From the NCBI RefSeq assembly GCF_900112105.1, contig NZ_FOKV01000007.1, forward strand, positions 124,001-188,000: a stretch of DNA of 64,000 nucleotides, read 5' to 3'. Shown here one piece after another: positions 47,279 to 49,322 of this stretch; positions within the stretch are counted from its first letter, which is position 1, and the number at the start of each line of letters is the position of its first letter. The translations under genes were made by a program, and so were the position numbers. Source of the DNA: Zunongwangia mangrovi. Its GTDB lineage: Bacteria; Bacteroidota; Bacteroidia; Flavobacteriales; Flavobacteriaceae. The notes beneath the pieces were generated by a model. That model worked only from the letters and a program-made list of their open reading frames with translations. It was not told the DNA's origin and did not search any database.

Positions 47279-47626
47279 TTATTTATAAGGATCGCCGCTG
47301 GCTGCAGTAATAATGCAGATTAGGTGTAGAATAAGTCCCGGGAAAATAAATAAAAAGTAACCTATAGTAACGAATATTAGCCACAAAATTCCTGCAGCTA
47401 CTTCACCTTTATAAATATGCCCAACGCCAGGAAAAAATACACTAAGTAAAATGGCCAAACCTGCATTCCATTTTGGGTAATTATTAATAACGGTTACAGG
47501 TGCCTGAGCCTGTTGTGAAGAATAGTTTTGGCTGCCATCAAAACGCTCACCACAATGCCAGCATTTAATCGCTTCAGATTTAATGGTTTCTGCACAATAG
47601 GGACATTTCTTGGTTTGATAATCCAT
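47279..47626 (-). CDS. Zinc-ribbon plus TM2-like small membrane protein
   Basis: A 115-residue protein. The N-terminus has a double CxxC zinc ribbon (CPYCAETIKSEAIKCWHCGERF). After a Gln/Pro-rich linker, two or three membrane segments follow (GLAILLSVFFPGVGHIYKGE, then AAGILWLIFVTIGYFLFIFP). FFPGVGHIYKG is typical of TM2-like proteins. Function is unknown; such proteins are often stress-linked. An ECF-like promoter (TGTAAC-N16-CGTC) ends 24 nt before the ATG, and the same element precedes the next two minus-strand genes. Confidence 0.85.
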   Translation of the reverse strand: MDYQTKKCPYCAETIKSEAIKCWHCGERFDGSQNYSSQQAQAPVTVINNYPKWNAGLAILLSVFFPGVGHIYKGEVAAGILWLIFVTIGYFLFIFPGLILHLICIITAASGDPYK

Positions 47627-47650: not shown

Positions 47651-47676
47651 GACGCAAATAACTGAAATTCGTTACA
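47651..47676 (-). promoter_or_regulatory. ECF-sigma-like promoter 1: TGTAAC-N16-CGTC
   Basis: On the minus strand TGTAAC (47676-47671) and CGTC (47654-47651) are 16 nt apart and 24 nt upstream of the zinc-ribbon ATG. This matches the AAC/CGT pattern and spacing known for ECF promoters in other phyla. Two further copies lie at 48058 and 49297. Confidence 0.65.
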
Positions 47677-47690
47677 TAGGGTTCACATTT

Positions 47691-47790
47691 TTATTTGTAT
47701 CGCAAAAGGATATAGTACACCGGAACTTGCTTCGAAATTAAAAATTATTTTCCAACCAATCTTTGTGAGCACGTCCCGAGTAAGTTTACT
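47691..47790 (+). repeat. Interspersed palindromic repeat, copy D (long form, decayed)
   Basis: A 100-nt unit with diverged ends (TTATTTGTATCGCAAAAGG ... TAAGTTTACT). Its inner segment matches that of copy E: CTTGCTTCGAAATTAAAAATT and a relic of the second hairpin (GAGCACGTCCCGAG). It starts 15 nt upstream of the ECF-like promoter of the zinc-ribbon gene. Confidence 0.75.
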
Positions 47791-47947
47791 TGTTAAGCCT
47801 TAAAACACAAAAAATCCATTCTGAAAAAATTATCTATAAAAGCTTCAAATTTCTTACAAAGTAGAATCTTACTCTAACATATCGATCTAGTTTAAAGGCT
47901 TGATGGTACGAATTTGTTATCTGGAAAAGCTTATGCAATTTAGATCT

Positions 47948-48031
47948 TTACTCTTTCTTTTTAAAGATTTTGAGAAGCACAAATAGTCCTACAAAAAAGC
48001 CAATAATGAAAATTAAAAATGTGTTTTCCAT
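47948..48031 (-). CDS. 27-residue single-helix membrane peptide
   Basis: A short frame starting at the ATG at 48031 codes MENTFLIFIIGFFVGLFVLL followed by KIFKKKE and TAA. It has one hydrophobic helix with a GxxxG-like pattern (IIGFFVGLF) and a lysine-rich cytoplasmic end, the classic form of a small membrane protein. A complete ECF-like promoter ends 26 nt upstream, which makes it more than a chance frame. It was too short for usual gene finders. Function is unknown; partners could be an envelope enzyme or the zinc-ribbon protein under the same promoter type. Confidence 0.5.
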   Translation of the reverse strand: MENTFLIFIIGFFVGLFVLLKIFKKKE

Positions 48032-48057
48032 AATTTTTTTTGATTAGTTATTTATCT

Positions 48058-48083
48058 GACGTAAAAAGCTAAGATTTGTTACA
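48058..48083 (-). promoter_or_regulatory. ECF-sigma-like promoter 2: TGTAAC-N16-CGTC
   Basis: TGTAAC (48083-48078) and CGTC (48061-48058) have exactly the same spacing as promoter 1, and the spacer and flanks are also similar (RAATYTNAG in the spacer). It lies 26 nt before the ATG of the 27-residue peptide. Confidence 0.65.
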
Positions 48084-48143
48084 TAAGAGTTTGATTTTTA
48101 GTTTTTATATCAGATACCAATAAGATATCCCTGCATTATAGAC

Positions 48144-49271
48144 TTATAATCGATCATCAAACCATTTGGTCATAAGCTTCTGTAATTCTTGTTTCTTGTC
48201 TGAGAAACTATGATCTGTATCAAATTCTTTTAGCTGAAAATCATAATCGATATTAGATAATTTCTGAGCAATTTTTTTAGCCTGGTTAGGATTTACCTGC
48301 TGGTCTCTGGTTCCGCATAAAATTAGAAGACTGGCATTTTTATCTAATTCTTCAGGCCAATAATAAACGGAACGTTTCTTTAATTCTGAAGTTTTATTAG
48401 CGCCGCCAAAGGGTATAATACTCCTAGGCTTACCTCGAAATTAAAAAATTGTTTCTAGTGAATGCCTCGTGGGCTTGCCCCGAGATAGTTTACTTTCTTC
48501 ATAATTTTGGATCAATTTTGCACAAACTCTGCTTTCCATTTCAGGATGTTCTTCGATTAGTGGAAAAAGATCTGAAGGTCCGTTTCCAACAATAGCAGTT
48601 TTGATGTCTTTAGAATGCTTAAGCGCTAAGTAAGTCATTATCCCGCCTCGTGACCAACCAATCATACCAATTCTATTGGCGTCGGCTTTTTCAATCTTCT
48701 TAACTGTTTGGGTTAAATAAAGCACATCGTTGATGTCTTTTCCGCCAAATTCATCATTTTCCCTATAGCAGCTGGCGACTAAAACATAACCTTCTTTCAC
48801 TAAATTCGAAAATTGAAGAAGCGGATAAAAACCTTTGCTTTGTGAAGAAACGCCTTCCTCTTTGTTTCCACCTCTGTTTACTATAATTACGGGAAACTTT
48901 CCTTTCTTTTTAGGTTCAGCAATAAAACCGTTTATTAACAACGAATCACTTTTATAAACGATCTGGTAGAAATTCACTTCTTTTAAATAGTCAAATTCCT
49001 TCAGCAATTTATCGTCTTTCGAAACTCGTTCCCAAATGGGAGGAATCTCTGAAATTTCAAATTGCTTTTTCGATAAGATATCTCCGTTTTCTAGATTTTT
49101 AGCTTCTTTATAATCAGCTTCACTAAAGCTAGTGTCGAAAGCCGTATTAGATAATCCTTTTTCAAATTGATACTTCTTGTAAAGCGTTCCGCCAAATTTA
49201 AAACCAAAAAACAAAAAGACGATGATAAATAAGGTTCCTAGTACTAAGAAGATACGTTTGAAGATTTTCAT
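48144..49271 (-). pseudogene. Alpha/beta hydrolase (prolyl-oligopeptidase-like), disrupted by repeat copy E
   Basis: From the ATG at 49271 (a TTG at 49313 is upstream) the protein has a membrane anchor (about 4-24) and a hydrolase domain with PVIIVNRGGNKEEG and the nucleophile elbow GWSRGGIM. After NYEES the frame enters repeat copy E and stops at 48443. Beyond the repeat the same frame continues with TSELKKRSVYYWPEELDKN, the catalytic Asp in ILCGTRDQQVNP and His in DTDHSFSDKK, to a TAA at 48144. Removing 102 nt (48392-48493) rejoins NYEE-TSELKKR without change of frame, giving about 341 residues. The truncated product lacks Asp and His and should be inactive. An ECF-like promoter precedes it. 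Confidence 0.85.
48394..48494 (+). repeat. Interspersed palindromic repeat, copy E (long form, inside a gene)
   Basis: A 101-nt unit: TTATTAGCGCCGCCAAAGG at the left end, TAGTTTACT at the right end. Inside are two hairpin-forming segments, CCTAGGCTTACCTCG and CTCGTGGGCTTGCCCCGAG; the second is a strong stem with one bulged T and a 2-nt loop. It splits a hydrolase gene. The flanks allow a 3-bp TTT target duplication. Confidence 0.85.
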
Positions 49272-49296
49272 GATGATCGATGGTTTATATAAATAA

Positions 49297-49322
49297 GACG
49301 GGGAGGTCTTCAAATTGGTACA
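49297..49322 (-). promoter_or_regulatory. ECF-sigma-like promoter 3: TGTACC-N16-CGTC
   Basis: TGTACC (49322-49317, one change from TGTAAC) and CGTC (49300-49297) with a 16-nt spacer lie 25 nt before the hydrolase ATG. Spacing and distance to the start match the other two copies. Confidence 0.55.

Follow-up and report, generated by a model that had tools for sequence, protein, structure and literature searches.

Less is known about promoter signals in Bacteroidota than in model bacteria. ECF-type promoters carry an AAC-containing -35 element and a CGT-containing -10 element at a fixed spacing, and the promoter of SigW is TGAAAC-N16-CGTA. In Flavobacterium psychrophilum a motif designated SM6, with an ECF-like -10 element that includes a CGT box, has been mapped (Guerin et al. 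2021, PMC9723704); in the sections of that report drawn on here, the genes behind it comprise, among others, those of an ABC ATPase and of an ECF factor paired with an anti-sigma factor, its promoters gain activity in freshwater or when the medium is very poor, and the authors leave open which of the seven F. psychrophilum ECF factors reads it. In Porphyromonas gingivalis the genes PG_0214-PG_0218 rose together under peroxide in FLL361, by context the PG_0686 mutant, according to the available portion of the study (PMC10101095), and in Bacteroides and Phocaeicola the ECF/anti-sigma pair EcfO-Reo is tied to envelope stress in the excerpts at hand (PMC9308784, PMC13114119).

Here we describe a 64-kb stretch of DNA from Zunongwangia mangrovi (the window) together with its source genome (G000; 4.13 Mb, 32 contigs). 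An initial annotation had placed three ECF promoters of the form TGTAMC-N16-CGTC in this window, and their letters, spacing and placement before an ATG are borne out (Table 1): these are the only three matches in the window, all on the minus strand, with CGTC-to-ATG gaps of 24, 26 and 25 nt for the zinc-ribbon gene, the 27-residue ORF and the hydrolase respectively, and the mean chance expectation is 0.03 (100 dinucleotide shuffles, in which three matches never occurred). The claim of three ECF promoters stands for the first two sites, in which AAC in the -35 element, CGT in the -10 element and the fixed spacing are all found, and falls for the hydrolase site, in which TGTACC is without the AAC, an invariant base being changed, and the gene behind it is interrupted. 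Two of the three window promoters therefore look sound, and the third would be a decayed copy. Our main reading, to which we assign a probability of about 0.85, is that the two TGTAAC-N16-CGTC sites are probably promoters read by an ECF sigma factor of the GFO_1088 family, which would drive its own operon and an envelope regulon; it draws on sequence evidence, namely a motif of defined spacing and position that is conserved before both the sigma gene and an ABC ATPase gene and that is associated with the sigma orthologue across genomes.

Table 1. Coordinates of the features discussed; positions refer to the window unless a contig is given.
Feature	Position	Strand	Remarks
Candidate ECF-type promoter TGTAAC-N16-CGTC, zinc-ribbon gene	47651-47676	minus	TGTAACGAATTTCAGTTATTTGCGTC; 24 nt before ATG
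Candidate ECF-type promoter TGTAAC-N16-CGTC, 27-residue ORF	48058-48083	minus	TGTAACAAATCTTAGCTTTTTACGTC; 26 nt before ATG
Variant TGTACC-N16-CGTC, hydrolase	49297-49322	minus	TGTACCAATTTGAAGACCTCCCCGTC; 25 nt before ATG
Zinc-ribbon (PF13248) protein, 115 aa, hydrophobic C-terminal half	47279..47626	minus	
27-residue hydrophobic peptide ORF, lysine-rich tail	47948..48031	minus	
Anchored hydrolase, first part (276 aa)	48441..49271	minus	ends at stop inside inserted repeat
Insert in hydrolase frame, 96 nt	48399..48494	minus	boundaries read from alignment; in-frame stop
Remaining hydrolase coding sequence beyond insert	48144..48398	minus	
GFO_1088-family ECF sigma gene	G000:C21:293048-293554	minus	outside window; exact motif 41 nt before ATG

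When the window was scored with a matrix trained on 101 ECF-gene promoters from outside its genus, the three sites ranked 1st, 2nd and 3rd of 127,940 positions (the hydrolase site being the 3rd), a ranking that is only partly independent because the core letters of the matrix are shared with those by which the sites had been chosen in the first place. The absolute score is not decisive either, since the best window scores obtained with 12 column-shuffled matrices ranged from 5.3 to 17.3, against 14.1 for the real one.

Across the source genome TGTAMC-N16-CGTC has 16 sites, compared with 4 for the pattern read backward. Genome-wide enrichment, the first check named for the motif, is found for TGTAAC...CGTC as a peak at N16: the sites listed by spacer from 13 to 19 number 5, 2, 0, 12, 2, 0 and 0, that is, 12 at N16 and 9 at the six other spacers together, in a list that seems to give one spacer for some left ends (possibly undercounting the other spacers slightly) and from which the N17 reading before the locus L018 is absent. 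Because the backward control pooled over spacers 13-19 reaches 23 sites against 21 for the forward motif, the excess is confined to N16 and does not extend to the motif overall. Two of the 12 TGTAAC-N16 sites fall within ORFs, and the other ten are intergenic, each oriented towards a start. These starts are those of the 27-residue ORF and of genes for two ABC ATPases (the second of them, locus L005, counted here on a TTG start judged from alignment), a PF00144 hydrolase, an outer-membrane barrel that has plug and CarboxypepD domains, the zinc-ribbon protein, a DUF4870 protein, an ECF sigma factor, a MacB/FtsX permease and an M13 peptidase.

The two forms of the motif differ in where they lie. 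In six genomes of the genus, 69 TGTAAC sites were examined and 60 of them lie clear of any ORF of at least 100 aa (a fraction possibly as low as 60/72, as 8 of the 88 genus sites, three TGTAAC and five TGTACC, were left out for resembling coding sequence), whereas a single one of the 11 TGTACC sites examined, the window's own, is outside such an ORF and the other 10 are inside. TGTACC sites thus behave like background, TGTAMC was rejected as a consensus, and the degenerate M of the initial annotation finds no support.

The window's hydrolase gene is matched at E 1e-10 in only 4 of 60 genomes (here, in the congeneric genome G120 with 97% identity, and in two that are more distant), and G120 has it as an intact 343-aa gene without the 96-nt insert, preceded by TGTAAC where the window has TGTACC. 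The base changed in TGTACC is A in 103 of 103 ECF-gene promoters, and it is because this otherwise invariant A is altered, while G120 retains both TGTAAC and an intact gene, that promoter and gene alike look to be decaying here. It could be argued that the site is still active and gives rise to a short anchored protein, or to a transcript running into the downstream ORFs, its spacer, CGTC and leader length being intact and its score the third best in the window, but with the invariant base lost, the gene interrupted and TGTACC sites in the genus otherwise situated inside ORFs, we regard such activity as doubtful and retain decay as the reading of this site.

The insert is part of a repeat of about 100 nt that occurs in two copies in the window (47689-47791 and 48392-48495, 73-78% alike); a GC-rich hairpin is present in one copy, the copy at 48392-48495 sits in the hydrolase frame, and the repeat may be a REP- or MITE-like element. 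An 88-nt insert whose beginning is like that of this repeat was also observed 5 nt after the CGTC of the promoter of the second ABC ATPase (L005, G000:C11:101850-101875, minus strand), where it has no counterpart in G120 and sits about where transcription should start.

It had also been proposed to look for an ECF gene carrying the motif upstream of itself, and such a gene was found: of the 23 genes with sigma-70 region 2 in the source genome, one has the exact N16 motif just upstream. The 169-aa product falls within group 4 (ECF), with PF04542 and PF08281 both over their cut-offs and no region-3 model matched, and it scores 224.3 bits (cut-off 130) with the NCBIfam model NF058625 (model name sigma_PG0214; GFO_1088 family ECF-type sigma factor). 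The operon consists of the sigma gene, a putative anti-sigma gene and two DUF4252 genes, whose products match NF058626 and NF058619.

An orthologue of the sigma protein is present in 104 of 120 genomes of the family (E 1e-20, best match per genome, G000 included; the second, weaker match in three genomes was left out of the counts). Upstream of these 104 orthologues the motif is exact in 92 cases, within one mismatch in 103 and within two in all 104, against 0 exact and 0.48 one-mismatch occurrences per 104 in mononucleotide-shuffled upstream sequences. Other spacers gave one exact match (N12), two exact and 33 one-mismatch matches (N13) and 73 one-mismatch matches (N19), those at N13 and N19 being, on inspection of the column counts, largely the same sites shifted by three bases, with C-GTA after CGTC. 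The consensus of the sigma-gene promoter is TGTAACAAAW-N11-TCGTC-KTAAT. Among the best 80 of 389 relatives, taken from named loci that include Christiangramia, Salegentibacter, Flavobacterium, Kordia, Polaribacter and Zobellia, the motif is exact in 70 and has one mismatch in 10, and the layout is likewise kept: the putative anti-sigma ORF starts before the sigma stop in 80 of these 80, a DUF4252 gene comes next in 79 and a second one in 76.

The putative anti-sigma protein (153 aa) has no Pfam or NCBIfam match. Its predicted model (mean pLDDT 69.6, confident mainly over the first 50 residues) has three helices within the first 53 residues, mostly confident, and an outer part of low confidence; a helix at residues 76-96 is the only one predicted to fit a membrane span. 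Searching the PDB by sequence with its alignment gave no match up to E 1, a Foldseek comparison of its fold with the PDB returned two matches only (E 5.5 and 6.3), neither convincing, and a second structure comparison aligned eight chains, one of them at a weak Z of 2.5. As no known anti-sigma family or fold was matched, the anti-sigma role is assigned from gene order.

Related elements were observed before other sigma genes of the source genome. Another ECF gene, L018, is preceded by TGTAAC-N14/N17-CGTC (G000:C11:129951-129974, plus strand) at a distance of 36 nt from the start, and TGTAAC-N17-CGTA lies upstream of a longer sigma gene, L017, which we take to be that of the primary sigma factor; by eye, TGTAAC is found within 150 nt upstream of four other region-2 genes (L017, L018, L020 and L023).

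Across the family the motif tracks the sigma orthologue. The 104 genomes with the orthologue hold 981 motif sites against 356 for the backward control (motif above control in 92 genomes, below in 8), while the 16 genomes without it, which are mostly small, hold 25 against 32 (above in 6, below in 8), the seven of at least 2.2 Mb summing to 22 against 21. A Mann-Whitney test on the motif-control differences gives p 2e-7, with the genomes treated as independent, which they are not. A profile search of the 16 genomes, G031 among them, found no orthologue-like score, the best being 72 bits compared with 289 for the source genome's own protein. G031 has 6 motif sites against 2 for the control and an exact motif upstream of its ABC ATPase gene; since G031 keeps the motif and the control is exceeded in 6 of the 16 genomes in all, another ECF factor may read the motif there, or some of the losses may be recent.

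These observations bear on the possibility that the main reader of the window promoters is another ECF factor, or that several factors whose specificities overlap share them. Such a reading would be in keeping with the 23 region-2 genes of the source genome, with the elements upstream of L018 and L017, with the motif kept in G031 and with the F. psychrophilum study, which in its available sections allows SM6 to be read by several factors (PMC9723704), but we consider it unlikely, given that the exact N16 motif is found just upstream of no other region-2 gene and that motif enrichment follows the orthologue across 120 genomes. The GFO_1088-family factor is thus kept as the probable reader.

The targets of this factor appear to include a conserved core. 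In the six genus genomes the motif recurs upstream of the ECF gene, the ABC ATPase, the FtsX permease, the second ABC ATPase (for which no ORF is listed in G121), the barrel and the DUF4870 gene in all six, of the M13 peptidase in five, and of the PF00144 hydrolase and of a 133- or 134-residue protein in four each, a recurrence that is biased because the targets were found by the motif. The ABC ATPase was examined in a way anchored by the protein and not by the motif: 40 of 120 genomes were matched at E 1e-95, 30 of which had loci, and the exact motif lies within 200 nt upstream in 27 of these 30, the remaining three having one mismatch, two mismatches and no motif, respectively. The targets are largely envelope proteins, and "envelope stress", which we infer from the target list, fits that list.

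The zinc-ribbon gene is present in six of the six genus genomes and in 3 of the 120 family genomes (E 1e-8), and was rejected as a core target on the latter count. Its promoter is exact in two of the six, this genome and G120. The G121 copy departs by one base (AGTC), G122 and G123 have no more than a -35-like stretch, and in G100 the promoter is absent; none was seen, among the output listed, in G119, the single match outside the genus. The G100 orthologue (L084) has a stop codon inside the match and is missing the upstream sequence in which G121 (L083) carries its near-promoter, and both gene and promoter may be decaying in G100. Going upstream from the zinc-ribbon gene, the close similarity of the window to G120 (which holds from 47659 down) ends within the promoter, in the spacer that separates -35 from -10; beyond this break the two sequences differ, yet each has TGTAAC at an unchanged spacing.

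For the 27-residue peptide no convincing relative was found in 59 other genomes, the best other match having E 0.009 (self 1.3e-11); at E up to 1, matches occur in 22 of 60 genomes including its own, most of them stretches of longer frames. It is accordingly not supported as a conserved gene, and since no convincing relative was found, its promoter and leader are what suggest that it is a gene. Between the hydrolase and zinc-ribbon genes the window genome has about 0.46 kb holding this ORF, whereas the corresponding interval of G120 (L135, 3085-5045) is occupied by three different genes, which run on the opposite strand.

That the three window sites are chance matches, their genes being transcribed from housekeeping promoters or by read-through, might be suggested by the accessory nature of these genes, by a zinc-ribbon promoter not kept in all relatives and by a peptide without a convincing relative, but is highly improbable with 0.03 matches expected, all three sites facing a start at 24-26 nt, no exact TAnnTTTG in the roughly 150 nt upstream of the three starts, and TGTAAC retained at the same spacing in G120 beyond the break in similarity. 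Chance was likewise rejected as the origin of the motif overall, on the basis of the shuffles, the N16 peak, the family-wide enrichment and the conservation upstream of the ECF gene.

Taken together, the view that these are ECF-sigma promoters forming a regulon, as the initial annotation had suggested, is strongly supported by sequence comparison: it agrees with the N16 enrichment, with the ECF gene that the motif itself precedes, with conservation within one mismatch in 103 of 104 cases and with an enrichment seen in the genomes that have the orthologue and not in the 16 without it. The mechanism that we envisage is one in which RNA polymerase carrying the sigma factor would bind at the motif and start transcription shortly before each target gene, the sigma factor would drive its own operon from the same motif, and its one-helix membrane neighbour would most likely hold it inactive. 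The two DUF4252 proteins of the operon are probably exported. An envelope-side cue would relieve the anti-sigma protein, upon which the sigma factor would amplify itself and, once released, switch on mainly envelope genes, including ABC transporter parts, the MacB/FtsX-type permease, the outer-membrane barrel, the M13 peptidase, the DUF4870 gene and others. The zinc-ribbon gene and the short hydrophobic ORF would be accessory targets in this genome, and the third window site a decayed version of the same promoter before a broken hydrolase gene. A wider picture, which we put forward as possible and no more than tentatively, is that a conserved envelope regulon of the Flavobacteriaceae is run by one ancient ECF switch that amplifies itself (genes for sigma, anti-sigma and two DUF4252 proteins behind TGTAACAAAW-N11-TCGTC), and that each genus gains and loses small membrane genes through this promoter; here these might be the zinc-ribbon gene, a membrane peptide of 27 residues that is specific to the species and arose under an ECF promoter, and a hydrolase with both promoter and frame decaying.

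Sequence evidence hereby links a widely conserved motif with a single sigma family and with a core list of targets, which reduces the question of which ECF factor reads it to one mutant. For annotation we suggest a rule: where a genome encodes an NF058625 protein, look for TGTAAC-N16-CGTC oriented towards a start. Among the open-access matches listed, and in those parts of them that were available, TGTAAC-N16-CGTC is not stated for this sigma family.

At E 1e-10 the sigma family has four solved relatives, which include SigW and sigma-E, factors from a different phylum than the one described here. EcfO-Reo resembles the present pair in being a Bacteroidota ECF/anti-sigma pair, although, as the accessible text describes it, Reo spans both membranes and has a C-terminal barrel, whereas the protein here has 153 aa and a single predicted membrane-span helix (PMC9308784, PMC13114119). 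In the portion of the P. gingivalis study considered, the PG_0214-PG_0218 operon begins with sigma, putative anti-sigma and DUF4252 genes, like the operon here, and no promoter motif or regulon is given for PG_0214; PG_0985-PG_0987 is a second operon of the same layout, so layout alone does not mark the GFO_1088 family (PMC10101095). With SM6, compared by its text description in the sections available, the present motif shares the CGT box and two target types by name, the ECF/anti-sigma pair and the ABC ATPase, while no T9SS target of SM6 (GldN, PorU) was recognised behind the sites observed in this analysis (PMC9723704). On that description, the present motif is likely SM6: an ECF motif of this kind is then already known, and what is new is a candidate for the sigma factor that reads it.
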